Below are positions 3,670 through 42,933 of a stretch of DNA of 42,933 bases, piece after piece; positions within the stretch are counted from its first letter, which is position 1; each line of letters opens with the position of its first letter. The stretch comes from a virus. The translations under genes and the position numbers were made by a program. The DNA is taken from the IMG/VR virus record IMGVR_UViG_3300031673_000139, positions 1-42,933 of that record. The stretch is one strand, 5' to 3'. A model generated the notes under the pieces. The model saw only the letters and a list, made by a program, of their open reading frames with translations, searched no databases and had not been told where the DNA came from.

Positions 3670-4151
3670 AAAATCAAAAACAAGCGCAAATAACGCAAGA
3701 GATAAAAGCATACCTCAAGACCATCTCGCCGCCGAATGCGCCAGAAATTCTCGCAGAGGTGCGCACACATACCGCCGGGACGGCTTGGAGTCCCGCCGCC
3801 CTCGAAAACGTAAAGGCTTGGGCGCTTCTTTTCTTGCTTCCGACCGCTACGGGTCACGCAAGTCGCGCGCAGAAGTTACTAGCCGAGAGATATTGCCTGA
3901 TGATAAGAAGGGATGCCGGGAACGCGGCAACCTGCGCACTCCTGAAGGCTTGGGGGATACCAGAAGGGGCCATCGGGTGGTGTGGCCTGATTTGCAGGCG
4001 CCAAGGGTGCTTGCGGACGGGGCGCTGCCCAAAGGGACTGCTGGGGGCCTCGTGCTACGACGACCATGATTATTACTATGATTATGATGGTTCGGTAAAT
4101 GCCCGCGAATATCTAGGACCAGAAAGGAGCCGTCAAGATGGGGACGGGTAG
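3666..4151 (+). CDS. Hypothetical protein with C-terminal Asp/Tyr-rich stretch
   Basis: A 161-residue protein of unknown function. ATG 3666 overlaps the upstream TGA. The body is helical (QAQITQEIKAYLKTI, LENVKAWALLFLL, RAQKLLAERYCLMIRR). It is followed by a cysteine-containing segment (GWCGLICRRQGCLRTGRC) and an unusual acidic/aromatic run (YDDHDYYYDYDG) before the end. It overlaps the next gene by 14 nt. Codon use here is more AT-rich than in the structural genes. Confidence 0.6.
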   Translation: MKNQKQAQITQEIKAYLKTISPPNAPEILAEVRTHTAGTAWSPAALENVKAWALLFLLPTATGHASRAQKLLAERYCLMIRRDAGNAATCALLKAWGIPEGAIGWCGLICRRQGCLRTGRCPKGLLGASCYDDHDYYYDYDGSVNAREYLGPERSRQDGDG

Positions 4152-4353
4152 GCCGAAAATGTGGGAAATTCTGAGGCCATATTTGCACATGGCTACTCCT
4201 GGGCAACACGCCGTTATCTATCTCCATATTCTAAAAGGACTTAGCTTGCGCGAAGCGGCCGAAAATTTGCGCATTTCGCGGGACGCCGCAGAGAAAAGAC
4301 AGCAGCGATTTATGCGCAAAATAGCTAAAAAGCCGTCCCTACCCCGCATATAG
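4138..4353 (+). CDS. Small HTH protein resembling sigma-70 region 4
   Basis: A 71-residue protein. Its middle resembles the helix-turn-helix of sigma-70 region 4: AVIYLHILKGLSLREAAENL, then ISRDAAEKRQQRFMRKI. It has no other sigma domain, so it cannot be a whole sigma factor. Small region-4-like proteins in phages often act as late-gene activators or anti-sigma-type factors. It is the second-last gene before a terminator and the start of the late operon, which suits a role in the early-to-late switch (inference). Start ATG 4138 follows AGGAGCC. The gene is AT-richer than its neighbours. Confidence 0.65.
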   Translation: MGTGRPKMWEILRPYLHMATPGQHAVIYLHILKGLSLREAAENLRISRDAAEKRQQRFMRKIAKKPSLPRI

Positions 4354-4683: not shown

Positions 4684-4710
4684 GGCCGGCCGGAAGCCGG
4701 CCTTTTCTTT
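4684..4710 (+). terminator. Intrinsic terminator ending the early operon
   Basis: A 7-bp perfect GC stem (GGCCGGC at 4684-4690 with GCCGGCC at 4696-4702) with loop CGGAA is followed by TTTTCTTT. It sits between the last early gene (stop 4638) and the terminase genes, so it marks the early/late boundary. In 4711-4841 I see no convincing promoter of either the -35/-10 or the -24/-12 type, so how late transcription starts is unclear. Read-through or a phage-specific promoter are both possible. Confidence 0.8.
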
Positions 4711-9889: not shown

Positions 9890-9943
9890 TTGACCTGGGC
9901 TCGGGGGCGGCAATCGGGCCGCCCCCAGCCCCCGGAGATGCGG

Positions 9944-11794
9944 ATGATTGACCCCGCGGCCCAGCCCGCCATACTGATAGCTAACGGGCTGTCTGCCGAA
10001 GACTACCAGCCGCCGGAGGGGCGCTTCACGCTCTGCCTCAATGGCGGCTTCCGTACCCACCGTTGCGATGCAATTCTAACCACCGATTGCCCGCCGGGCA
10101 TCGAGCGCGACTTCCTTGCGTTCCCTGGCATACGCATTCAGGCTGCGCACAACGCGCGGTTCCCTGACCGCGACCGCAACCGGCGCGTAATCTGGGAGTG
10201 CGAAGGCCTTGTTCGCAAATACTGTTCATCGGTTGCCCCGGCGCTCAAGTGGCTTGCGAAGCGCGGCCATCGGGCCGTTACCATCGTGGGGCTCGACAGC
10301 CTTTGGGGCGACGGCAAGCCCGGCGCGGCCTACAACGGCGTTACCCGCGCCATGCTATACGAGTTTGCCCAATTGTTCCCCGACGGCCTGTGGATTGCGC
10401 GCGGCGAGGAGACTATCCGCGTAAACGCGCCCGGCTTCGCCGCCGCTGTGGAACGCTGGGCGAATGAGGGCGTATTGGTCAAGACCACGGGCGGGGCGCA
10501 AGCTCCGGCGGGGCCGCCCCCCGCCCGCGCCATGCAGCCCGGCGCTCCGCCCATCTTTATCGGCTACTACACCGAGGGCACGTCTTACGAAGCCGAAGCC
10601 AAGCTCCTGCGGTTGTCCCTGGAGGCGCACGGCCTTGAATACCACATCGCCGCGACCCCCAACCTCGGAAGCTGGCAGAAAAATACTCAGTACAAGTCGC
10701 AATTCATAGCCGCCGAACTGGAACGGCTGAAGCGGCCCGTGGTATGGGTGGACGCCGACGCGATTGTAATACAGCGGCCGGAATTGCTCTTGACCATGCC
10801 TGCCGGGGTTGATGTTGCCGCCGTCCGGTTCGCCACTGACAAGCACCTGTTATCGGGCACGGTGTATTTCTCCGGTTCGCCCAAGTGCATGGAGGTAGTC
10901 AAGCGCTGGAGCGCCCTCAATGCCAAGTACCCCGACTATCTGCCCAACGGCCGCCCCGCCTGGGACCAGCGCACGCTCGACATGGCGCTTATGACCACCC
11001 CCGGCGTCCGCTTCCTCGGGCTGCCGCAAGAATACACCTGGATTATCGAGATAACGCAAAAGGCCATCCCCGACCTCGTGCCGGTCATCATGCACACGCG
11101 CGGAGCCTACCGCTTCAAGGGCGAGATTGACCGTGGGCATTCGCCTAAGCCGTGGGTTGTATGGCCGACGGCCGCCCCGGCCATCGCCGCCAAGACCTGC
11201 AAGCGCTGGCAGGACCGCGGCTATCACGTATGCTTGCTGGCCGAAGAGCCGGGCAGCCTGGAGGCAACCGGGGCCGACAAGACCGTTTACCAGGACAAGT
11301 GGGAGGGCTTCGGCAAGGCCGTCAATCGGCTCTGCCGGGAGGTTCCTGGCCCGGTGGTTGTGGTTGCCGGCGATGATGTTTTCCCGCACCCTCAATGCTC
11401 CGGCTCGGAGATTGCCGACCGATTCTTGCGGGCGTTCCCGGATACCTTCGGCGTAATGCAGCCTACCGGCGACCCCTACGGCGGGTATATGTCGGCCTGC
11501 ATTTCCCCCTGGATTGGCCGCGCATTCATCGAACGCAGCTACGGCGGCAAGGGGCCGTATTGCGAGGAATACCACCATTGTTACAGCGACAAGGAACTTC
11601 AGGACGTGGCCGCGGCAACGGGTTGTTTCAAGCAAGACCCGGCGCTAGTCCAGAAACACGAGCATTGGGGGCGCTCCAAGAACGTATGGCCCGAACGCCT
11701 GCCGCACCATTACCGTATCGGTGACGCGCTCCCGACCGATGAAAAGCTATACAAAACCCGCAAGGCCGCCAAGTTTCCGGGGTCAGGGCTATGA
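9944..11794 (+). CDS. Three-domain glycosyltransferase-like protein
   Basis: A 616-residue protein right after the capsid gene. Domain 1 (1-160) is Rossmann-like with LIANGLS (11-17), and the later VTIVGLDSLWGDGKPG resembles MptE/DUF115-type enzymes. Domain 2 (about 198-395) looks like a GT-A glycosyltransferase: IFIGYYTEGTSYEAEA, then a DxD motif in VVWVDADAIV (D270/D272), which usually binds the metal and nucleotide sugar. Domain 3 (about 405-580) has a second GT-A-like core with VVVVAGDDVFPHP (D477/D478). ATG 9944 follows GGAG at 9934-9937; a TTG at 9890 is less likely. It overlaps the next start by 4 nt. Substrates are unknown. Confidence 0.75.
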   Translation: MIDPAAQPAILIANGLSAEDYQPPEGRFTLCLNGGFRTHRCDAILTTDCPPGIERDFLAFPGIRIQAAHNARFPDRDRNRRVIWECEGLVRKYCSSVAPALKWLAKRGHRAVTIVGLDSLWGDGKPGAAYNGVTRAMLYEFAQLFPDGLWIARGEETIRVNAPGFAAAVERWANEGVLVKTTGGAQAPAGPPPARAMQPGAPPIFIGYYTEGTSYEAEAKLLRLSLEAHGLEYHIAATPNLGSWQKNTQYKSQFIAAELERLKRPVVWVDADAIVIQRPELLLTMPAGVDVAAVRFATDKHLLSGTVYFSGSPKCMEVVKRWSALNAKYPDYLPNGRPAWDQRTLDMALMTTPGVRFLGLPQEYTWIIEITQKAIPDLVPVIMHTRGAYRFKGEIDRGHSPKPWVVWPTAAPAIAAKTCKRWQDRGYHVCLLAEEPGSLEATGADKTVYQDKWEGFGKAVNRLCREVPGPVVVVAGDDVFPHPQCSGSEIADRFLRAFPDTFGVMQPTGDPYGGYMSACISPWIGRAFIERSYGGKGPYCEEYHHCYSDKELQDVAAATGCFKQDPALVQKHEHWGRSKNVWPERLPHHYRIGDALPTDEKLYKTRKAAKFPGSGL

Positions 11795-12456
11795 GTCCGC
11801 TGATTCGCCTTGACGACTTCCCGACCGGCGTAAAGGGCTGGCAACCGCCGCTTGACTCACTTGCCGCCATTCTCGCCATGTTCAACCGCGTCCATGCGCG
11901 CTACCTCCTGGGCGTGTCCCCGTTGCTCCTGCGGCCCGGCGATACGGAATGGCTCAACGAGCACGTGGCCGCGCCCGGCGCCGTGGTCATGCACGGCTTC
12001 GACCACCGGATAACCTACCCTGACTGGGCGAACGTCCGCAATACGTGGGCGCATGGCGGCGAGTTTGAGGGGATGACCGCCTGCCGATTCCTTGCCCGCT
12101 GGGCGGAATGCGATGGCATTCTCCGCGCCGTCCAGCGCTACGATGATTCCCATTTCGTCCCGCCATTCAACGCCTACACCCAAGCCGTGCTTGACGCCTT
12201 GCAGGAAACCCCCGTGCTGAATCTGCATACGCTGGATTCGCTCCACCGCGAGCTACAGCAGAACAAGCTCAATCACGGCCGGCTGATTCTGCATATCGGC
12301 ACATGGGAGAAATCCTACGGGTCGGTACATGATGTGGCCGCGCAGTACAACCGGAGCGGGCCGACAATCACGCTGCATTGGGCCTTTGACCAACAGGCGA
12401 ATTCCGCCTGGTTGCAGGATTACGAGCGGCTTGCCAAGAAAATAGGGGCGGGGTAA
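11791..12456 (+). CDS. Polysaccharide-deacetylase-like protein (DUF2334/NodB-like)
   Basis: A 221-residue protein with the layout of the carbohydrate-esterase superfamily. An N-terminal Asp pair sits in IRLDDFP (D8/D9), and a metal-binding HGFDH (H68/H72) follows VVM. A later segment with PPFNAYT and a final histidine region (LILHIGTWE) complete the pattern. Related enzymes remove acetyl groups from N-acetyl sugars. Position among four glycosyltransferase-like genes suggests it trims the same glycan (inference). ATG 11791 overlaps the preceding TGA. The TAA overlaps the ATG of a tiny following frame. Confidence 0.7.
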   Translation: MSPLIRLDDFPTGVKGWQPPLDSLAAILAMFNRVHARYLLGVSPLLLRPGDTEWLNEHVAAPGAVVMHGFDHRITYPDWANVRNTWAHGGEFEGMTACRFLARWAECDGILRAVQRYDDSHFVPPFNAYTQAVLDALQETPVLNLHTLDSLHRELQQNKLNHGRLILHIGTWEKSYGSVHDVAAQYNRSGPTITLHWAFDQQANSAWLQDYERLAKKIGAG

Positions 12457-12491
12457 TGAGCCTAGACGAGCCGGCCTGGGAGCGCACGTGA
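12456..12491 (+). CDS. 11-codon mini-frame bridging two coupled genes
   Basis: ATG 12456 overlaps the TAA of the deacetylase-like gene, and TGA 12489-12491 overlaps the GTG start of the next gene. The peptide (MSLDEPAWERT) has no recognisable function. The frame most likely exists to carry ribosomes across a 32-nt gap, or is a relic. GGGAG at 12478-12482 within it serves as the ribosome-binding site of the next gene. Confidence 0.3.
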   Translation: MSLDEPAWERT

Positions 12492-13249
12492 TTCTGGCGG
12501 CGGCTACCAACTATACGGAGGCCGAGGTCCGGCCCTTCGCACTTTCCCTGGCGCGCTCGGGCTATCAGGGCGAGCTTGCCCTGGTGGCCCCGCCGCACCC
12601 GGAATGGGACTGCCTGCGGGGCATCAATGTCATCTGGATTGCGCAGCGCCTTGCCGGCTCTTATCAAATCGGCAACGGCCGATTCCTGGCCTTCCGGGAA
12701 TTCCTCAAGACCGTACCGCTGCCGAAGCAACTGCTTGTATGCGATTTGCGCGACTTGGTTTTCCAGCGCAACCCCGAGGCGGCGCTGCCCAGCGAAGACT
12801 TGCACGTCTTCTGCGAACACAGCGCCATGACCATCGGCTCCTGTCCGTACAACTCCGGCGCATTGCGTAGCTGCCACGGGGAAAAGGCGCTTGCCGACCT
12901 GGCCGGGCGGTCCATCATCTGCTCGGGTACATTCTGCGGCGGCGGGGCTGAGGTCAAGGCGTATCTAGACCAGCTATGGGGCGCGCTGGTTCGCCTGCCG
13001 GCTACGCTCCTGGCCCGCACCATGACCGACCAAGTGACCCACGCGCTGCTGTGCTATACCGGCAACGTCGGGGCGGTCATTCACGGTAACGAGGATGGCC
13101 CGATTTATACCGTCGGCTACATGCCGCGCGAGTCGCTCCTGCCCGCCCCGGACGGCTGGCTCCGCAACCGCGCGGGGCTGCCGTGCATCGTCCACCAGTA
13201 CGACCGGCACGTCAACCTGACCGCGCATTATCGGAGGATGTTCGCGTGA
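12488..13249 (+). CDS. Glycosyltransferase-like protein with DxRD motif
   Basis: A 253-residue protein. Its N-terminus (MILAAATNYTEAEVRPFALS) matches the opening strand and helix of GT-A-type enzymes that handle host or phage glycans. A VCDLRDLVFQRNP segment (D86, R88, D89) matches the DxRDxxFQxxP signature seen in several glycosyltransferase-like families. It continues with ICSGTFCGGGAEV and a C-terminal HQYDRH segment. GTG 12488 has GGGAG 5 nt upstream and overlaps the mini-frame stop. Donor and acceptor are unknown. Confidence 0.65.
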   Translation: MILAAATNYTEAEVRPFALSLARSGYQGELALVAPPHPEWDCLRGINVIWIAQRLAGSYQIGNGRFLAFREFLKTVPLPKQLLVCDLRDLVFQRNPEAALPSEDLHVFCEHSAMTIGSCPYNSGALRSCHGEKALADLAGRSIICSGTFCGGGAEVKAYLDQLWGALVRLPATLLARTMTDQVTHALLCYTGNVGAVIHGNEDGPIYTVGYMPRESLLPAPDGWLRNRAGLPCIVHQYDRHVNLTAHYRRMFA

Positions 13250-14025
13250 CGTGGCGAACCGACCCGATAAACTGCCGGCGGCTGGGGCAACTGGCGGGCG
13301 AAGCGCCGGGCGGCGTTATCCGGTACTGCCGGACCTGCAACGTGGCTACCGAGGCTGAGGGGCTGGCCGCCGGCAACCGGCCGACCGTGCTGATATCCTC
13401 GGGGAGTGACGCGGTTGCTACTGCCGCAATGGCCGCGCGGCTTCCCCGGAACGTCAAACGCTGGTTTACTACCAACTGCGGGATAGACCCGGCTTCCGCG
13501 CTGGGCGCGCGCGTAGAGGCGCTTCCGATAGGCTTTACCGCTTGCAGCGGGGATATTCTGAGGCTGCTGATTGCCCAGGCGACGCGCCCGCGCGCGCGCA
13601 AGAACCTGCTCCTGATCAACCACCGCCGAACGCACTCGGCATACAAGAGCGCCGAACGCGTCCGACTGTATAACGCCTTCCGGCCCTTCCGCTGGGCAAC
13701 TATGAGCGGCGACTTGCCGCAGGCCGATTACTACGCCGAGTTGGCCGCGCATGACTACACGCTCTCGCCCGCCGGGGCCGGCCCGGATTGTCACCGAACA
13801 TGGGAGGCATTGGCGCTGGGCACCATCCCGATAGTGCGGCGGTCAGTCTATACCGATGTGCTTGACGAGATGCCGGCGCTGCAAGTCGAGGACTGGCCGG
13901 AGGCCGGCGCTGAACGGCTGGAGGCCGAACTGCCGCGGCTCCGCGCGCGCTTCCACTCCCCCGCCATGCAACGGCTAACCCTGACCTATTGGCGCAAGCG
14001 CATGGAGGCCGCGCTGTGCGCGTAA
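13246..14025 (+). CDS. Exostosin/GT47-like glycosyltransferase
   Basis: A 259-residue protein starting at GTG 13246 (GTGA overlap). Residues about 171-200 (YTLSPAGAGPDCHRTWEAL, then GTIPIV) match the C-terminal nucleotide-sugar-binding motif of exostosin-like glycosyltransferases, in which a conserved RxWEAL precedes a GxIPIV strand. The middle part includes KNLLLINHRRTH and FRWATMSGDL, typical of a GT-B C-terminal half. The protein is shorter than full exostosins, so the acceptor half may be reduced. It is coupled to both neighbours. The acceptor is unknown. Confidence 0.7.
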   Translation: MTWRTDPINCRRLGQLAGEAPGGVIRYCRTCNVATEAEGLAAGNRPTVLISSGSDAVATAAMAARLPRNVKRWFTTNCGIDPASALGARVEALPIGFTACSGDILRLLIAQATRPRARKNLLLINHRRTHSAYKSAERVRLYNAFRPFRWATMSGDLPQADYYAELAAHDYTLSPAGAGPDCHRTWEALALGTIPIVRRSVYTDVLDEMPALQVEDWPEAGAERLEAELPRLRARFHSPAMQRLTLTYWRKRMEAALCA

Positions 14026-14681
14026 TCAGCTTCAGTCTTTACGGCGACCGCCCCATGTACCTGAAGGGCATGGTCGAGAATGCCAAGCTGGCCGCCAAGT
14101 TCTATCCCGGCTGGCATATCCGCGTGTACTGCGAAGACAGCATCAACGTCAAGCCGTTAGAGGCGCTCGGCTGCCAGATTCACCGCGTGGGCAAGAGCTT
14201 CGGCCACTCCGGCATGTTCTGGCGGTTCCTGCCGGCATGGGATAAGGGCGTAAGCTACTGCCTCTTCCGCGACGCGGACAGCCGGTTGAATCCGCGGGCG
14301 AGCGCCGCCGTGGCCGCTTGGATTGACAGCGGCCTCGCCTGCCACGCCATGCACGACCACCAGCACCACCGGAGCATCCCGATTCTCGGCGGCATGTGGG
14401 GAATCATGGGCAACGCCCTCCCTTCGTGGTTATTGGTCAGGTGCATCGAGGTCTACGGCGGCCATGCCGAAAAGGGAATGGACAGCGCCTATCTCTCGCG
14501 GGAAATCTGGCCGTTTGTGCGCGAAACCTGCCTGACTCATTCATCCGTGCCGCTGGCGTTCCCAGAACACCCGATTGTGATTCCGCCGCAGCCGTTCCCC
14601 GGTCACGCGCCGATGGATGGATTCGTCGGGCAGCAGTACGACGATAACGGGCAACCGATATGGCCGGGGGGCAAGCCGTGA
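14016..14681 (+). CDS. Glycosyltransferase-like protein with DxD motif
   Basis: A 221-residue protein. GTG 14016 has GGAGG 7 nt upstream and overlaps the previous gene by 10 nt. The N-terminus (RVISFSLYGDRPMYLKGM) and the later YCLFRDADSRLNPR (D86/D88, then R90) fit a GT-A nucleotide-diphospho-sugar transferase, with DxD as the metal site. A histidine-rich stretch (MHDHQHHRS) follows. The C-terminal part is Pro-rich. It is the fourth glycosyltransferase-like gene of the cassette. Confidence 0.65.
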   Translation: MRVISFSLYGDRPMYLKGMVENAKLAAKFYPGWHIRVYCEDSINVKPLEALGCQIHRVGKSFGHSGMFWRFLPAWDKGVSYCLFRDADSRLNPRASAAVAAWIDSGLACHAMHDHQHHRSIPILGGMWGIMGNALPSWLLVRCIEVYGGHAEKGMDSAYLSREIWPFVRETCLTHSSVPLAFPEHPIVIPPQPFPGHAPMDGFVGQQYDDNGQPIWPGGKP

Positions 14682-15289
14682 ACCTCCATGAAGAGCTTGC
14701 CGCGTTCTGGCAAACCGCCGGGGGTAACTCCCTATCGGGTTGCACGCTGAAGACACACATAGATTTCCTGGGCGTCGGGGATCGCGTGCGGCCCGGCGCG
14801 GTAGTTCTGTGCATCGGGGTCGGGACCGGGACGTGGATAGCAAGACTGGCCGACGCCGGCTGCGAACCACACGCGCTGGATATTGCCCCCGCCGCCCTGG
14901 CCCGCGCCACGGCCGCAAAGGCGACGTACCTTGACGGCGCCCCCCTGCCGGCAGATACCTTTGACCTGGCGCTCTCGCATTGGGTGTCGCCGCACCAGCC
15001 CCCTACCGTGCTGGAGGCCCAGATTGCCGCCGTCGTCCCGGCGCTGAAGCGCTCTGGCCTGTTCGCCTTGCACTACAACGGGCCTTTCAACTGGCCGGGC
15101 GAACGCGACCCGCGCCAGCCGGATATCACGCCCTACCAGCGCTGCCTTAACGCCTGTTCGGTTTTCGCCCCGGAGCGCATAGCCGAGATGGCTGCGCAAG
15201 CCGGCGGCAAGGTGGTTGCCAACTTCGCGCGTGAAGACTGGCCGAAATACTACCGGCGGCTATACGCCGCGCATATCGCGAGGGCTTGA
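14678..15289 (+). CDS. Class I SAM-dependent methyltransferase
   Basis: A 203-residue protein starting at GTG 14678 (GTGA overlap). The SAM-binding motif I is VLCIGVGTGTW (about 43-53), followed by HALDIAPAAL (motif II acidic residue) and FDLALSHWVS (motif IV position). This is the ordinary Rossmann-like methyltransferase layout, unlike the DNA methyltransferases elsewhere in the genome. As the last gene of the glycan cassette it may methylate a sugar or cap the glycan (inference). The next gene starts 3 nt after the stop. Confidence 0.75.
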   Translation: MNLHEELAAFWQTAGGNSLSGCTLKTHIDFLGVGDRVRPGAVVLCIGVGTGTWIARLADAGCEPHALDIAPAALARATAAKATYLDGAPLPADTFDLALSHWVSPHQPPTVLEAQIAAVVPALKRSGLFALHYNGPFNWPGERDPRQPDITPYQRCLNACSVFAPERIAEMAAQAGGKVVANFAREDWPKYYRRLYAAHIARA

Positions 15290-26694: not shown

Positions 26695-27351
26695 ATGACC
26701 AACGCAATCGGAACCGAAGGGGACGGCGACTATGTGGCGACCTCTGCCGTCAAGGGGGCGGTGGACAAGGCCCACGACCGCGCCCACGCGATAACCTCCG
26801 GCGATGACCACTCCGGGCTCACGGGCGACGGCGACAAGGTGCTCTACGACAACGGGGTCATGGCGCCTATCGGTTCGCTGGTTGACGTTGCGTTCGACGA
26901 TGAGTCGGGGCACACCTGCGTTGCGGGCACTGAGCAGGCCGACCAGTTCGACCACGGCAATGTCGTTCCGGGCAACCTGAGCGGCGGCCAGCACATTATC
27001 CAGGTTGACGATTCGCTGGCAGATGAGTGGCTTGTCATGGGGGACGATGGCGAGGGCAACCTCGTCGAACTCGGCGGCACCGGCAATATCCACTTGGTGT
27101 CGGGCACGATTGATTACGAAACCGGCGAGTTCGCCTTCGAGACCGACGAGGCCATCACGGAGGGCAAGGTGCTCAAGTGGGGGTATATCTACGTTGGGTC
27201 GTTGACCCCTGCCGTGTTCAACCAAGCTGCGGAACCGACTGTGGCGCAACTCCCCGCCGGCCAAATGTGCTTTTGGACAGACACCGACGACTCCAAGTGC
27301 TACCTGTGCTACAATCACGGCGGAACGGTCAAGACTGTAGAGATGACATAG
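26695..27351 (+). CDS. Putative tail fibre / appendage protein
   Basis: A 218-residue acidic protein with a repetitive, low-complexity N-terminal half (KAHDRAHAITSGDDHSGLTG, then DKVLYDNGVMAP) resembling phage fibre proteins. The C-terminal part (QAAEPTVAQLPAGQMCFWTD, SKCYLCYNHGG) resembles fibre tip segments with the 'AGQMCFWTD' type of strand. It is the last gene of the late operon and probably forms the receptor-binding appendage. It has GAGGG before ATG 26695. A terminator follows 47 nt after its stop. Confidence 0.6.
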   Translation: MTNAIGTEGDGDYVATSAVKGAVDKAHDRAHAITSGDDHSGLTGDGDKVLYDNGVMAPIGSLVDVAFDDESGHTCVAGTEQADQFDHGNVVPGNLSGGQHIIQVDDSLADEWLVMGDDGEGNLVELGGTGNIHLVSGTIDYETGEFAFETDEAITEGKVLKWGYIYVGSLTPAVFNQAAEPTVAQLPAGQMCFWTDTDDSKCYLCYNHGGTVKTVEMT

Positions 27352-27398: not shown

Positions 27399-27435
27399 GC
27401 GCGCTGGCCCCCCTCCGGCCGGCGCGCTTATTTTT
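27399..27435 (+). terminator. Strong terminator between the convergent operons
   Basis: An 11-bp stem (27399-27409 with 27417-27427, one T-G pair) with a 7-nt loop is followed by TTATTTTT. It ends the rightward late operon just past the fibre gene. The T-run also contains the stop codon (TAA, read leftward) of the last gene of the leftward operon, so convergent genes end back to back. In the leftward direction no T-run follows, so it should work mainly rightward. Confidence 0.85.
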
Positions 27436-27595
27436 GCAGGGCGGCGATTATGCCCGGCACCTTAAGCGCCGGAATCGGCACAAGCCCGCGCTCCCAACGG
27501 TGGACCTCTTGAGCCGAACAGCCCAACCGCTCCGCCGCCTGCCGCTGCGTCAGCCCGGCCGCCTGCCTGAGCGCCCGGAGTTCCGCGCCGGTCAC
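27428..27595 (-). CDS. Small XRE-family HTH regulator
   Basis: A 55-residue protein made almost entirely of one helix-turn-helix: RALRQAAGLTQRQAAERLG, then SAQEVHRWERGLVPIPA. It is the typical Cro/C1 (XRE) DNA-binding fold. Without a C-terminal domain it is closer to a Cro-type repressor than to a cleavable one. GTG at 27595-27593 (leftward) overlaps the stop of the preceding gene. It is the last of five leftward genes and may regulate the 28662-28995 control region or bind elsewhere. Confidence 0.75.
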   Translation of the reverse strand: MTGAELRALRQAAGLTQRQAAERLGCSAQEVHRWERGLVPIPALKVPGIIAALQK

Positions 27596-27849
27596 GGCCG
27601 CTCCGCCTGCTCGATGGCCGCGCGAGCCTCCCCCACCAAGACGTGTAGCCACTCTGCCGCGCGCTTCTTGCCGATGTATTCCTGGTGACCCGGCCGATTG
27701 CCGGCGGCCAGCTTGCCGGCGCAACACTCTGTCTGTCTCGCGTAGTCCCGGAGCGCCGCCAGCAGCGCCGCCTTGTCGGCGCGGAGACGGGTGATTTCCG
27801 CGGCCATCGCGCCGTGACTCGACTCCACCTGGTACGTTTCGCAAGCCAT
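27592..27849 (-). CDS. Helical hypothetical protein
   Basis: An 85-residue protein of unknown function in the leftward operon. It has a heptad-like helix (AAEITRLRADKAALLAALRD) followed by CCAGKLAAGNRPGHQEYIG and another helix. A GGGAGG ribosome site precedes its ATG (27849-27847), itself preceded by a small GC hairpin with a GCGA loop. Its stop overlaps the start of the XRE gene. Confidence 0.6.
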   Translation of the reverse strand: MACETYQVESSHGAMAAEITRLRADKAALLAALRDYARQTECCAGKLAAGNRPGHQEYIGKKRAAEWLHVLVGEARAAIEQAERP

Positions 27850-27873
27850 GTTAGCCTCCCGCCGCTCGCGCGG

Positions 27874-28077
27874 CTAGATGATGTTCCCTGGCAGCCGAGA
27901 ACCGCTCTGCCGTACCCTGCCACCACCCAGATGCACCAGCCTCACCCGATAAGCCCCCTTGTCTACGGTGGCCACCGCGCCGCGAATCATTGAGGCCAGG
28001 ATGGCCCTCGCCTCTCTCATGGCCTGCCGGTCGGTCGGGTATTCGTTGATGGTGCATCCGATTAGTGCTCTACTCAT
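27874..28077 (-). CDS. Small hypothetical protein
   Basis: A 67-residue protein of unknown function. The middle (NEYPTDRQAMREARAILASM) is amphipathic, and the C-terminus is beta-like (YRVRLVHLGGGRVRQSG). A strong GGAGGAGG ribosome site lies before ATG 28077 (leftward), within a duplicated leader module (28091-28120). The stop codon TAG is itself part of the hairpin preceding the next gene. Confidence 0.55.
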   Translation of the reverse strand: MSRALIGCTINEYPTDRQAMREARAILASMIRGAVATVDKGAYRVRLVHLGGGRVRQSGSRLPGNII

Positions 28078-28161
28078 TTCCCTTCCTCCTCCTGCCCGGC
28101 TCTCCGGCGCCGGGCGGCCTCGGTCCCCCTCGTTAGCTCCTTCGGCCGGCTCCGGGCCGGA

Positions 28162-28425
28162 CTACAAAACACGCCCCCAGGTCGCGCGAGAATTGTGCGA
28201 CCCCATGAGTATGCGCCCGTCACGTGACACGATGGCATCATCTCCATCGTACAGGCTCGCGCGGATCAGTGGATACACCGCCGTTTGGCCGCAGTCCTCC
28301 CAGCTGTCGGCGACCGCCAGTGACCGCGACCCGGCCACGGATAGCTCGCGGCACATCCTCCGCCAAATCGCCCGCAACGTCCGGCCCCGGTACTCCCGCC
28401 CCATCTCGTCACGCAGGATACGCAT
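28162..28425 (-). CDS. Small hypothetical protein
   Basis: An 87-residue protein of unknown function. The N-terminal half is basic (GREYRGRTLRAIWRRMCREL). The C-terminal half (ASLYDGDDAIVSRDGRILMG) looks like a small mixed alpha/beta domain. GGAGGAGG lies before ATG 28425 (leftward), again with the hairpin module (28442-28455). No known family is recognised. Confidence 0.5.
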   Translation of the reverse strand: MRILRDEMGREYRGRTLRAIWRRMCRELSVAGSRSLAVADSWEDCGQTAVYPLIRASLYDGDDAIVSRDGRILMGSHNSRATWGRVL

Positions 28426-28454
28426 CTGTCATCCTCCTCCTGCCGCTCGCGCGG

Positions 28455-28661
28455 CTACTTGCGCTCCGCCTTGGCGATGGCCGCGCGGTAAAAGGCTTCG
28501 GCCGTCGCGGCGTCGTAGACCTTCCGGGCTTCGGCCGTCGCGGCGTCGTAGACCTTCCGGGCTTCGGCCGTCGCGGCGCAGTAGACCTTCTGGGCTTCGG
28601 CCGTCGCGGCGCCGTAGACCTTCCGGGCTTCGGCCATCGCGGCGTCGTAGTACATCCCCAT
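28455..28661 (-). CDS. Tandem 11-residue-repeat protein
   Basis: A 68-residue protein made almost wholly of five 11-residue units of the type (A)xAEARKVYxA, each encoded by a 33-bp DNA repeat. The units differ at one or two sites (KVYD, KVYC, KVYG), the last being degenerate (AFYRAAIAKAERK). An 11-residue period fits a hendecad, three helical turns, so the protein probably forms an extended helix with a stripe of Ala and Tyr. It is the first gene of the leftward operon, 60 nt from the predicted start of transcription. Function is unknown. Similar AEAxKVYxAA peptides occur in other phage proteins. Confidence 0.6.
   Translation of the reverse strand: MGMYYDAAMAEARKVYGAATAEAQKVYCAATAEARKVYDAATAEARKVYDAATAEAFYRAAIAKAERK
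28495..28650 (-). repeat. 33-bp tandem repeat inside the repeat-protein gene
   Basis: Units of 33 bp start at 28495, 28528, 28561 and 28594, with a shorter fifth unit from 28627 to about 28650. The first two units are identical; the third and fourth differ at one to four positions around the codon before the conserved Lys-Val-Tyr. The period equals 11 codons, so copy-number change keeps the frame open. This points to slippage or unequal crossover as the way the gene length varies. Confidence 0.85.
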
Positions 28662-28731
28662 CGTCCTCTCCTCCTCCTGCCCGTCTCACCGGCGCCGGGC
28701 GGCCGTGCTCTTGTTCTCTACATATTGTATA

Positions 28732-28747
28732 AGCAAGGGTCATGCCA
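28732..28747 (-). promoter_or_regulatory. Sigma-54-type (-24/-12) promoter of the leftward operon
   Basis: On the minus strand the sequence TGGCATG-ACCC-TTGCT matches the sigma-54 consensus (TGGCACG-N4-TTGCW) at all positions but one (T for C). The invariant GG and GC are exactly 10 nt apart. It predicts a start near 28721, giving a 60-nt leader to ATG 28661 that contains the type-2 hairpin and the ribosome site. A TATACAAT sequence lies just downstream (28719-28733) but has no -35 partner. Confidence 0.7.
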
Positions 28748-28832
28748 CAGATGGCAGACAACCGCTAGTCTCGTAAGCCGCGCGTTTGCGCCACTTGCGC
28801 CACCAACGTAGAGCAACCGTAGCTTTTGGCTA

Positions 28833-28879
28833 TGACAAAAATTATCGCGGTGACAAAAAGTGTTACCCAAAATTGTCAC
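28833..28879. promoter_or_regulatory. Candidate enhancer (activator) sites between the divergent promoters
   Basis: TGACAAAAA occurs at 28833-28841 and again at 28851-28859 (18-bp period). GTGACAA at 28850-28856 is mirrored by TTGTCAC at 28873-28879, a 7-bp inverted repeat with a 16-nt gap. These AT-rich elements lie in an otherwise GC-rich genome, about -99 to -145 from the rightward and -112 to -158 from the leftward predicted start. Sigma-54 activators usually bind at such distances. They could instead be repressor operators. Confidence 0.55.
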
Positions 28880-28951
28880 TCGGTGGGCAAGTCCTGTATC
28901 CGTTTGCGCCCTAAGCCTTGCAATACCGGGGGGTTGCGAATAAAAAGCCTT

Positions 28952-28967
28952 TGGCACGGTGTTTGCT
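28952..28967 (+). promoter_or_regulatory. Sigma-54-type (-24/-12) promoter of the rightward early operon
   Basis: TGGCACG-GTGT-TTGCT is a perfect match to the sigma-54 (RpoN) consensus TGGCACG-N4-TTGCW, with the GG and GC dinucleotides 10 nt apart. The start is predicted near 28978, only 18 nt before ATG 28996, and the short leader is essentially the GGGAGGA ribosome site. The match is at the base of a long operon of replication and methyltransferase genes. No good -35/-10 pair is seen here. Confidence 0.75.
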
Positions 28968-28995
28968 ATATCCCTGTTGACTTGGGAGGATTAAG

Positions 28996-29328
28996 ATGTC
29001 AAGGCCACCAGCAAAAGACCACAGACCCGGACAGTTATATCTACCCGAAAAGATGCGTGATGCCCTGCGCATTCGCCTTTTATCTATTCAGAAAAACCGG
29101 TGTGCGATATGCGGCAAGGACTTTACCGGAGAGACCGGAAAGCTGCATATAGACCATGACCACACGACACGGCAAATTCGGGGACTTTTGTGCCGCTTCT
29201 GCAATCACGCCGTGGGGTGTCTCCGGGACTCGGTTGCAAGTGCACAAGCCCTGATAGCCTATCTTCGCTGTCCCCCGCTTGACCCCCCCGGTTGTCATCC
29301 GGTTCCGCCTTGGGAAAAAAGCAAGTGA
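28996..29328 (+). CDS. Recombination endonuclease VII-like HNH nuclease
   Basis: A 110-residue protein with the endonuclease VII pattern: CAICGKDF (C36/C39), then the HNH-like core LHIDHDHTTRQIRGLLCRFCN (H51-H56, C66/C69), and a helix ALIAYL. Endonuclease VII resolves branched DNA before packaging and debranches replication intermediates. It is the first gene after the rightward sigma-54-type promoter, with a strong GGGAGGA site. It overlaps the next GTG by 4 nt. Confidence 0.85.
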   Translation: MSRPPAKDHRPGQLYLPEKMRDALRIRLLSIQKNRCAICGKDFTGETGKLHIDHDHTTRQIRGLLCRFCNHAVGCLRDSVASAQALIAYLRCPPLDPPGCHPVPPWEKSK

Positions 29329-30448: not shown

Positions 30449-30570
30449 CCGCGACACAGCGCGAAATCTGGCGGTCTACGCTGGTAATCGGCGCCGGGAT
30501 ACTGTTGCTGATCATGGCCTATTTCGGCGCGGACTGGATTGCGGACAAGCTGCAAGGGGGCGGGCGATGA
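30445..30570 (+). CDS. Small single-span membrane protein
   Basis: A 41-residue protein with one membrane segment (STLVIGAGILLLIMAYFGA) and short polar ends. GTG 30445 follows GGGAGGCGGAAC, a good ribosome site. Its function is unknown. Tiny one-span proteins in early operons often act as membrane effectors or superinfection factors; nothing here points to one role. The stop overlaps the next ATG. Confidence 0.55.
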   Translation: MTATQREIWRSTLVIGAGILLLIMAYFGADWIADKLQGGGR

Positions 30571-31127
30571 GCAAGATGCTGGATTTCTGCAAGGCGCACG
30601 GCGCTTGCAAGGACGCGGTTGATTGGCTAACCGCGGGGGGCATTGAGACGATGGCCGACGCCTGGGCAAAATGCCCCCGGGCAGACTGGATGCTGTGGGG
30701 GTTGCGCAAGCTGGGCAAGCTGACGAAGCGCCAAAGCGTGAAAATCGCCATCACGTTCGCCGTTCGCGCGTTGCCGCTTTTCGAGAAGCGCTACCCCGGA
30801 GACGAGAGGCCACGCAAGGCCATCGCGGCGGCGCGTAAGTGGCTGGCAAATCCGTCCGCCAAGAACGCCGCCGCCGCCTACGCCGCCGCCTACGCCGCCG
30901 ACGCCGCCGCCGCCTACGCCGGCGCCGCCGCCTACGCCGCCTACGCCGCCGCCGCCGCCGCCGACGCCGACGCCGCCGCCGCCTACGCCGACGCCGCCGC
31001 CGCCTACGCCGGCGCCGCCGCCTACGCCGCCGCCTACGCCGCCGCGCGGTGTGCCGAGTGGCTCTGGCAGGCGAATTATTTGCGCAAGGCATTCCCCAAG
31101 ATGTTTGCGAAAGGGGGCGGGCGATGA
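30567..31127 (+). CDS. Ala/Tyr-rich repeat protein
   Basis: A 186-residue protein in three parts. The N-terminal 95 residues are a helical domain (MLDFCKAHGACKDAVDWL, TMADAWAKCPRADWMLWGLR, ARKWLANPSAK). They resemble the N-terminus of putative immunity (Imm5-like) proteins found in phages. The central 60 residues are Ala-Tyr-Asp-Gly repeats (AAYAAAYAADAAAAYAGAAAY type). A final domain (CAEWLWQANYLRKAFPKMFA) ends it. The repeat is likely a long helix. ATG 30567 overlaps the upstream stop. Confidence 0.55.
   Translation: MSKMLDFCKAHGACKDAVDWLTAGGIETMADAWAKCPRADWMLWGLRKLGKLTKRQSVKIAITFAVRALPLFEKRYPGDERPRKAIAAARKWLANPSAKNAAAAYAAAYAADAAAAYAGAAAYAAYAAAAAADADAAAAYADAAAAYAGAAAYAAAYAAARCAEWLWQANYLRKAFPKMFAKGGGR
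30868..31047 (+). repeat. GCC-rich tandem repeat encoding Ala/Tyr blocks
   Basis: About 180 bp of GCC, TAC, GAC and GGC codons in imperfect repeats. The most regular unit is 12-15 bp (GCCGCCGCCTAC type), often with GACGCC. Its minus strand reads as long Arg-rich frames, which are artefacts of the composition. Such GC triplet runs are prone to slippage, so the length could vary between isolates. Confidence 0.75.
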
Positions 31128-32032: not shown

Positions 32033-32193
32033 CCCGCAAGCGTAAGATTCTCCGGCTGCAAGGACGCCGCGGCCCGCTGACTGAGCGGCAGCGGTTCATC
32101 CTGGCCTTGGAGCGCGCGGCGATAGAACTCTACGATGACATGGTTAGGCAGGATGAATCGCGGCGCGCATTCCGGCGGGAGGCCGACGAATGA
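32029..32193 (+). CDS. Small basic hypothetical protein
   Basis: A 54-residue, arginine-rich frame from ATG 32029 (ATGA overlap with the previous stop) to TGA 32191-32193. It starts MTRKRKILRLQGRRGPLTER and continues as a helix with many charged residues (RFILALERAAIELYDDMVR). Such small basic proteins in early operons often bind DNA or RNA, but no family can be named. Confidence 0.5.
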   Translation: MTRKRKILRLQGRRGPLTERQRFILALERAAIELYDDMVRQDESRRAFRREADE

Positions 32194-34702: not shown

Positions 34703-35139
34703 TTGACCCGACTGTTTATCTGGCCGGATACATCGCTGGTGAGGTGCTGGACAAATGCCGCGAGTGGCGCGAATTTTGCAAGCAGGAGGAACCCACGTGG
34801 AACTGGATAGACCCCCTTACCGGCAAAGACTTGTCTAGCATTACGCCGGACGGCTGCGGAAGCTCCATCCCCCATTCCGTGATTTTTGCCCGCGATTTTC
34901 AATCGGTATCTCGCGCGCACATGCTTCTCGGCAATATTGACACCTTTGGCTGTGTCCGCCCCCCCTTGGGGACATACTCCGAAATCGCGTGGAGTTACGT
35001 TCAACGCAAACCCGTCCTGTTGCTCTCTACGGACCAGCGAATTCGGCAACACCCATTCATCACTGGTCAGGCGGCCTTTGTGGGGTCAACCGTACCCGAA
35101 ATAATGGCGATGGCCCGATACATCGCGTTGGGGTTGTAG
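34699..35139 (+). CDS. Nucleoside 2-deoxyribosyltransferase-like protein
   Basis: A 146-residue protein with the layout of the family. It opens VYLAGYIAGEVLDKCREWRE (strand and glycine turn) and has NWIDPLTG and an NID-type aspartate. GTYSEIAWSYVQRKPVLLL carries the expected catalytic-type Glu (E95). Family members cleave or exchange the base-deoxyribose bond. It could salvage nucleotides or take part in base modification. ATG 34699 overlaps the upstream stop. Confidence 0.7.
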   Translation: MIDPTVYLAGYIAGEVLDKCREWREFCKQEEPTWNWIDPLTGKDLSSITPDGCGSSIPHSVIFARDFQSVSRAHMLLGNIDTFGCVRPPLGTYSEIAWSYVQRKPVLLLSTDQRIRQHPFITGQAAFVGSTVPEIMAMARYIALGL

Positions 35140-40185: not shown

Positions 40186-40978
40186 GCGCCTCGGGCCGTA
40201 CGAACTGGGGCGCGTACACGTTGGCGACTGCCTGGAGGCGATGAAGCAGTTGCCGGACGGGTGCGTGGAGATATGCGTTACTTCTCCGCCATACAATCAG
40301 CTAGGTAGTCGCATTCCTACCGCCCCCACCGGAATGCACAAGGGCAACGGGTTTCTAGCGAAGGTTTCGGCTAATGGCTACGCCGATGATATGGACGAAC
40401 TGGACTATCAAAAGTGGCAATCCCAATTAGTCCATGAACTGCGCCGCGTTTGTAAATCTACCGTTTGGTACAACCACAAACTGCGATACCGGGACGGACT
40501 AGCCATTTCTCCCATGAGATGGTTGGGGCATCTCCCACTGTGGGCCGAAATCGTTTGGGACCGGGGGGGCGGGATGGCTCTAAACGCTAATCGGTTTGTG
40601 CCTAGCGATGAGCGTATATATGGGATTGACGCGCCCGAATGGTGGGATGCGTCATTCAATACCAAAATGACCGTGTGGCGCATAGCTCCTTTCAATGCGT
40701 CGGGCACCGATCATCCTTGCCCGTATCCGTTGGAAATTCCCAAGAGGCTGATAGGGGCGTCGTGTTCTCCTGGCGGAATTGTCGTTGACCCCTTTGCCGG
40801 CAGCGGCACAACCGGAGTCGCCTGCGCCCAGATGGGCCGGAAGTTCCTCGGCTTCGAGATTGACCCGCACTGGGCCGAAGTCGCCAACCAGCGCATGGAG
40901 GCCGCCGCCAAGGGCCTGACCCTCGCCGAGCACCGCGCCGGCCAGGGACAACTGTTCGGAGACGCCGATGCAGAATGA
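40178..40978 (+). CDS. Beta-class DNA methyltransferase, N4-cytosine type
   Basis: A 266-residue protein with TSPPYN (35-40) and DPFAGSGTT (204-212), the beta-class order. SPPY rather than DPPY in the catalytic motif is common in N4-cytosine enzymes. Its first 14 residues (MPERLGPYELGRVH) and its end (AGQGQLFGD) are shared with the preceding gene, while the rest is unlike it and AT-richer than its neighbours. This suggests cassette exchange between shared ends. It is coupled to the preceding gene and overlaps the DnaB start by 11 nt. Confidence 0.85.
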   Translation: MPERLGPYELGRVHVGDCLEAMKQLPDGCVEICVTSPPYNQLGSRIPTAPTGMHKGNGFLAKVSANGYADDMDELDYQKWQSQLVHELRRVCKSTVWYNHKLRYRDGLAISPMRWLGHLPLWAEIVWDRGGGMALNANRFVPSDERIYGIDAPEWWDASFNTKMTVWRIAPFNASGTDHPCPYPLEIPKRLIGASCSPGGIVVDPFAGSGTTGVACAQMGRKFLGFEIDPHWAEVANQRMEAAAKGLTLAEHRAGQGQLFGDADAE

Positions 40979-42278: not shown

Positions 42279-42933
42279 CCCATGTTGACCTCTTTACCGG
42301 ACTCGGCGGATTCTCCCTTGCCGCCCGAGCCAACGGAATCCGCACCATCGCCATGTGCGAATGCGACCGGCGTTGCCGGAAATTCCTCGCCAAAGCCTGG
42401 CCCGGAATCCCCGTCCATCCCGACGTGCGAACCTTCCCCGGAGCCGACTATCGCGGGGCCTTCCTCCTCACTGCCGGGGTTCCCTGCCAGCCTGCATCCC
42501 GAGCCGGGAAGCAAGGAGGCGCGGGAGATGACCGCTGGCTCTGGCCGGCGGCTCTGGCGGCGATGGAATCTGTCCGGCCCGATTGGTGTCTATTCGAAAA
42601 CCCTCCTGGAATCGAAGACGTGGGGCTCGACGGAATACTTGCTGAAGTGGCGGGAAAAGGCTACCAAGTCGGGCCGGTTTTCGATATTCCAGCTTGCGCC
42701 GTGGACTCCCCGCAACTCCGGCACCGACTCTGGATTGTGGCCCACCGCGCTGGCGGCCGACCAGAAACAATCGGGGAGTCCGGCCAAGGGATTGACGTAC
42801 CTGACCCCGGCGCTCAAGTCCCTCTACCCGACGCCGGAGAAATCACTGACCGATGCGGGGCACACCAGCAGGTCGGGCCAGCGCAAGAGCGAGTTGATGC
42901 TGGGCGGGCTGGTGAGCGCGTATCCCACCCCGC
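42275..42933 (+). CDS. DNA cytosine-C5 methyltransferase, N-terminal part
   Basis: The gene starts at GTG 42275 (overlapping the helicase stop) and runs off the window; it continues across the circular join to 386 (302 residues in all). Motifs are present in order: motif I DLFTGLGGFSLA, motif IV VPCQPASRAGKQ with catalytic C71, motif VI FENPPG (ENP in place of the usual ENV, 108-110), and motif VIII QLRHRLWIVA (147-156). It methylates C5 of cytosine in an unknown target and is the third DNA methyltransferase of this operon. The last 136 bases lie within the terminal repeat. Confidence 0.9.
   Translation, partial: MTHVDLFTGLGGFSLAARANGIRTIAMCECDRRCRKFLAKAWPGIPVHPDVRTFPGADYRGAFLLTAGVPCQPASRAGKQGGAGDDRWLWPAALAAMESVRPDWCLFENPPGIEDVGLDGILAEVAGKGYQVGPVFDIPACAVDSPQLRHRLWIVAHRAGGRPETIGESGQGIDVPDPGAQVPLPDAGEITDRCGAHQQVGPAQERVDAGRAGERVSHP
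42798..42933. repeat. Right copy of the 136-bp direct terminal repeat
   Basis: These bases are identical to 1-136 except for C at 42807 against T at 10. The C5-methyltransferase frame continues through the join without a break, so the sequence is circular or circularly permuted. The Pro codon here (residue 178 of the enzyme) is Leu in the left copy. Confidence 0.9.

Follow-up and report, generated by a model that had tools for sequence, protein, structure and literature searches.

In bacteria, sigma-54 (RpoN) promoters consist of -24 and -12 elements with the consensus TGGCACG-N4-TTGCW, for example in pspA and glnAp2, and some sigma-54 operons are arranged divergently around a common activator region. 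Known phages mostly begin infection by means of the host's housekeeping sigma factor. The open-access papers that we searched do not describe phage control by sigma-54 promoters, which is of course no proof that no such description exists; the putative sigma-54-like protein of a Pectobacterium phage (PMC7693777) is a different matter.

The window, i.e. the whole stretch of DNA analysed here, is one viral contig (42,933 bases, 63% GC). Its ends (1-136 and 42798-42933) overlap by 136 bases at 99.3% identity, and for this reason we regard the genome as complete, about 42.8 kb long and circularly permuted or circularised. Tiling of open frames by codon-position GC gives a nearly continuous series of rightward genes, which starts at 28996, runs across the ends and stops at 27351, as well as a single leftward group at 27428-28661; the remaining short minus-strand frames, which overlap rightward genes or lie beside them, are treated as spurious. 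Two hairpins resemble intrinsic terminators, both on the plus strand. The one at 4684-4707 (7 G-C pairs, then the T run TTTTCTTT) is the probable end of the early rightward unit, and the one at 27399-27432 (11 pairs, 10 of them G-C, then the T run TTATTTTTGC) closes the late rightward unit and abuts the end of the leftward operon. Given the rightward set, the one leftward group and the closing terminators, the 334-bp intergenic region at 28662-28995 (53% GC against 63% for the genome) is the only point of divergence.

The first rightward gene (28996-29328, plus strand) encodes endonuclease VII, a recombination endonuclease (PF02945, 5.2e-18; phrog_307, 1.4e-21), and it is followed in the same direction by other genes, among them those for an AAA ATPase at 32135 and a DnaB-type helicase at 40968 (PF03796, 9.4e-42). 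The last but one early gene (4138-4353, plus strand), just ahead of the terminator at 4684-4707, encodes a 71-aa helix-turn-helix protein resembling sigma-70 region 4 (phrog_1740, 2.2e-5; Sigma70_r4_2, 4.7e-5; Sigma70_ECF, 1.1e-4), which is a candidate regulator of the late genes. The frame at 30567-31127 encodes an alanine-rich repeat protein with 14.8 copies of a 12-bp unit and an Imm5-like match above the cut-off (1.4e-7), and at 9938-15289, within the structural gene block, glycosyltransferase-like and methyltransferase-like frames, judged by eye, stand in a row.

The initial annotation had proposed a sigma-54-type promoter in front of the leftward operon, back to back with a rightward one in front of its own operon. 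Indeed, the minus strand from 28747 to 28732 reads TGGCATGACCCTTGCT (TGGCATG, ACCC, TTGCT), with a single mismatch to TGGCACG-N4-TTGCW (its sixth base is T where TGGCACG has C) and an exact GG-N10-GC spacing, just as had been claimed for its sequence, strand, coordinates and spacing. The A/T-rich stretch TTATACAATAT follows directly after the -12 element, whereas the box has no T-rich stretch before the GC, a point against a sigma-54 promoter. By the geometry of sigma-54 promoters, transcription on the minus strand is predicted to start at the G at 28721, which lies 12 nt past the C in the -12 element. The predicted leader to the ATG of the first leftward gene at 28661 is 60 nt long and has a strong ribosome-binding site; the earlier claim of a 60-nt leader is therefore right, 28721 being the predicted start of the transcript and not that of the gene. 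The rightward box at 28952-28967 on the plus strand, TGGCACGGTGTTTGCT (TGGCACG, GTGT, TTGCT), is a perfect match. Its predicted start lies at about 28978, with a leader of 17-18 nt to the ATG at 28996 that contains the strong Shine-Dalgarno sequence GGGAGG. Both boxes fit the context TGGCAYR-N4-TTGCW with GG and GC 10 bp apart. They face outward with 204 bp between them, each upstream of a gene on its own strand and in a number above chance, so that the back-to-back arrangement is as described and lies in the only divergent region of the genome.

For the comparison with chance, we counted as near-perfect any site on either strand with at most one mismatch to TGGCACG-N4-TTGCW and with GG and GC kept. 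Two near-perfect sites were found in none of 20,000 dinucleotide shuffles of the 334-bp region, and 60 permuted motifs (mean 0.3 matches in the genome) gave no match in this region, which bears out the view that the paired sites can hardly be a coincidence. In the whole genome there are 3 near-perfect sites against 0.5 expected; two of the three lie inside the 334-bp region, and the third, at 34765 on the plus strand, lies within a coding frame. The chance of two of the three best sites landing in the region is about 1.7e-4, or about 4e-5 if orientation is included. If up to 2 mismatches are allowed, the genome has no more sites than chance would give (9 against 9.06 expected), hence the weight rests only on the near-perfect matches and their placement. 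We regard the sequences of the boxes, their placement and orientation, this statistical excess and the layout of the genome as the established part of our explanation.

Could both boxes be accidental, with the operons transcribed by the primary sigma factor of the host from promoters outside our consensus scan? The initial annotation had named a sigma-70-type start upstream as the competing source of leftward transcripts, and we found no match to TTGACA-16/18-TATAAT with at least 9 of 12 bases in 28600-29050, using a consensus that is E. coli-like and may not be that of the host. The limitation of the scan to E. coli-like sites, whose matches across the genome are at about the chance number, leaves some room for this explanation. 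However, given the results with shuffled regions and permuted motifs, we consider it very improbable.

It is somewhat easier to imagine that the rightward box alone is real, the leftward one being a chance likeness and the leftward operon being transcribed from a weak or unrecognised promoter. At least one near-perfect site does occur in 0.45% of the 20,000 shuffles, the second site alone, given the first, is an event of about 0.2-0.5% (p about 0.005), and the leftward box was searched for after the first site had been noticed. Further, TACAAT at 28729-28724 on the minus strand could serve as a -10 element. However, this hexamer has no -35 partner at 16-18 bp and the scan revealed no sigma-70-type promoter, while strand, distance and leader of the leftward box are all correct. 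In our opinion such an accident is distinctly unlikely.

A divergent pair of sigma-54 promoters is the simplest account, because consensus, spacing, orientation and leaders all follow from it, as does the lack of sigma-70-type sites. A real leftward sigma-54 promoter is thus the best single reading of this DNA, and we lean towards it with modest confidence. It suggests that the early genes may be switched on through the host's activator-dependent sigma-54 RNA polymerase, and not through the housekeeping one. Of the promoter as originally annotated, the placement, the orientation and the lack of coincidence stand; its activity, like the binding of sigma-54 and the existence of an activator and its site, is what we infer from the sequence.

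The region 28662-28995 of this complete phage genome would then serve for early control. On both outward -24/-12 boxes, RNA polymerase carrying the host sigma-54 would sit as closed complexes. A host AAA+ enhancer-binding protein would bind somewhere in the 204 bp that separate the boxes, perhaps at the dyad at 28850-28866, and open both promoters. Leftward transcription from near 28721 would reach the five small genes, the last of which encodes an XRE-type DNA-binding protein, and rightward transcription from near 28978 would reach the early genes and those for replication. Past the terminator at 4684, the late genes would probably be activated separately, perhaps by the 4138-4353 protein. 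A family search of the phage record found no gene for an enhancer-binding protein (PF00158) or for sigma-54 (PF04552), therefore both would need to be supplied by the host. If this is true, phage development would depend, through sigma-54 and its ATP-driven activator, on a specific host signal, for instance nitrogen state, envelope stress or motility. The early promoters would be silent without this signal.

The dyad itself, GTGACA-AAAAG-TGTTAC, occurs only once in the genome. Its centre is 137 bp from the leftward and 120 bp from the rightward predicted start, which makes it a candidate site for an activator or a repressor, and it has no exact match to the NtrC, NifA, NorR, GlrR or TyrR patterns that we tried. 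A pattern search found no perfect IHF site. The tandem of two TTGCGCCAC units at 28786-28803 on the plus strand, with TTGCGCC again at 28904, is a possible further regulator site.

How does this locus compare with the described systems? With bacterial sigma-54 promoters the boxes share GG and GC 10 bp apart, the elements TGGCA[C/T]G and TTGC[A/T], an A/T-rich start region and space for an upstream activator site. They differ in belonging to a phage control region and in being predicted promoters. The divergent bacterial sigma-54 operons are similar in that two outward boxes, some 200 bp from each other, flank a dyad, whereas the genes here are phage early units and the dyad lacks an exact match to the listed activator consensus sequences. 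As in the divergent, lambda-type early regions of temperate phages, a single intergenic stretch separates a leftward unit with an XRE-type regulator from a rightward unit of early and replication genes. However, the lambda type relies on sigma-70 with CI/Cro operators, while we found no sigma-70-type promoter here, and none of the gene products that we scanned was identified as an integrase, an excisionase or a repressor of full length. We considered a lambda-type genetic switch and rejected it, since there is no sigma-70-type site and, in place of a full repressor, only the 55-aa XRE protein that closes the leftward operon.

The leftward operon has five small genes on the minus strand, each preceded by a GA-rich Shine-Dalgarno sequence. 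The first (28455-28661, 68 aa; codon-position GC 0.65/0.52/0.91) has the strong Shine-Dalgarno sequence GGCAGGAGGAGGA and is made of tandem 33-bp repeats (11 aa, unit ATAEARKVYDA; 4.8 copies at 28494-28650). The second (28162-28425, 87 aa) and the fourth (27592-27849, 85 aa) match no family above the cut-off, and the third (27874-28077, 67 aa) has a weak match to DUF6894, below the cut-off. The fifth (27428-27595, 55 aa), which overlaps the fourth by GTGA, encodes the XRE-type helix-turn-helix protein (HTH_31, 1.1e-14; HTH_3, 4.9e-10; PHROG transcriptional regulators). GC-rich hairpins on the minus strand at 28436-28455, 28094-28115 and 27861-27874 lie directly 5' of the Shine-Dalgarno sequences of the second, third and fourth genes, with energies not much beyond those of shuffles.

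The initial annotation had suggested looking in related genomes for joint conservation of the two sites. Searches with endonuclease VII, the DnaB-type helicase and the terminase found no close relatives, and searches with the intergenic DNA itself found no similarity to phage records. The AAA ATPase has relatives at 80 viral and 20 genome loci, which are mosaic and have no boxes; 47 whole records sharing the ATPase gene, distant relatives, contain 2 sites against 1 in the reversed-motif control, which counts against the sigma-54 reading.

The same box is strongly enriched in noncoding DNA of other phages, cultured Pseudomonas and Vibrio phages among them, which supports the sigma-54 reading but also calls for caution. 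In IMG/VR we found at least 119 stretches with divergent pairs at a distance of 190-220 bp; a control scan for convergent pairs returned 102, and a complete count of both kinds, matched at 198-204 bp, gave 15 divergent against 11 convergent pairs. Because the convergent control is so rich, we rejected the idea that the scan for divergent pairs proves conservation of the architecture. Such pairing is nothing unusual in this collection; what stands out is that certain phages carry many boxes. In 47 records picked by the paired-box scan, a selection that accounts for up to two sites per record, there are 158 strict sites in noncoding regions and none of the reversed motif. Across loci the boxes form arrays with preferred spacings, namely a sharp one of 18-21 bp for convergent and one of 21-26 bp for divergent neighbours, and for tandem ones near 26-29, 37-39, 46-47 and 57 bp, in steps of about one helical turn. 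Boxes occur in all orientations, and some pairs face each other with 2-5 bp between them; such tight pairs may serve as operators, origins or decoys, or as bidirectional promoters that overlap.

Since these arrays and tight convergent pairs look unlike ordinary promoters, the box may have another protein-binding role. The boxes of our phage, too, may not be promoters, or not only promoters. They may be operator or origin sites at which a DNA-binding protein of the phage or the host acts, or they may hold sigma-54 RNA polymerase as a decoy, with the operons starting elsewhere or through another sigma factor. The similar frequency of divergent and convergent pairs at 198-204 bp agrees with such a role, as do the preferred spacings of the 16-mer arrays and the sigma-70-type promoter that adjoins the boxes of Pseudomonas phage PaP1. 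However, the present phage has no array, just two boxes that face outward at promoter distance. Even in the array phages, only about 60% of the noncoding boxes, but still the majority, point towards the next gene (185 against 113 and 138 against 90, with crude gene calls). We consider a non-promoter or mixed role of the boxes unlikely, but it is the most serious competitor of the divergent sigma-54 promoters.

Cultured carriers of the box are PaP1 and its kin, the T5-like Vibrio phages KIT04 and VCPH, and Pseudomonas phage vB_PpS_SYP. Together with the existence of rpoN mutants of laboratory strains, these Pseudomonas and Vibrio phages make the idea directly testable. In PaP1 (Pakpunavirus, HQ832595.1, L334) the boxes at 78755+, 78907+, 78940-, 90672+, 90900- and 91179- form two clusters adjoining early genes, and beside them the sigma-70-type promoter TTGACA-17-CACAAT precedes early genes. 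Boxes of sigma-54 consensus are also carried by LC487410.1 (6093-6362), AP014889.1 (116851-119766) and OQ183418.1 (640-854 and 11810-11992). In two T5-like Vibrio phages they sit near the A1/A2 pre-early genes, and the third carrier is a 107-kb Pseudomonas phage; the reversed-motif control gave no matches in these phages. The arrays of PaP1, KIT04 and VCPH are like the present locus in consisting of the same 16-mer in noncoding DNA beside early genes. They are unlike it in their several copies, mixed orientation and tight convergent pairs and, for PaP1, in the additional presence of sigma-70-type promoters.

None of 37 box-carrying records has a gene that reaches the family cut-off for sigma-54 or for an activator. 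No box clusters are present in Desulfofustis phage LS06-2018-MD02 and Myxococcus phage Mx8, two phages whose hosts are rich in sigma-54. Dyads between paired boxes elsewhere include TGTCAA-N4-TTGACA in 6 loci and, with one mismatch allowed, TGACA-N5-TGTCA in 5 loci including this phage; these are too few to name one common regulator, and we rejected that idea. We propose, tentatively and with more doubt than for the leftward promoter itself, that sigma-54-type boxes may be a widespread and so far undescribed phage control element, the divergent pair of some phages, such as this one, acting as early promoters, so that infection would go ahead only with an active host activator, and the phased arrays and tight convergent pairs of others acting as bidirectional promoters or decoys.

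Phased noncoding arrays of TGGCAYG-N4-TTGCW are seen, for instance, in L057 (212-662), L062 (5667-6037) and L076 (10770-11009), and further ones in L082 (233-927), L017 (6534-8539) and other loci among L006-L221.
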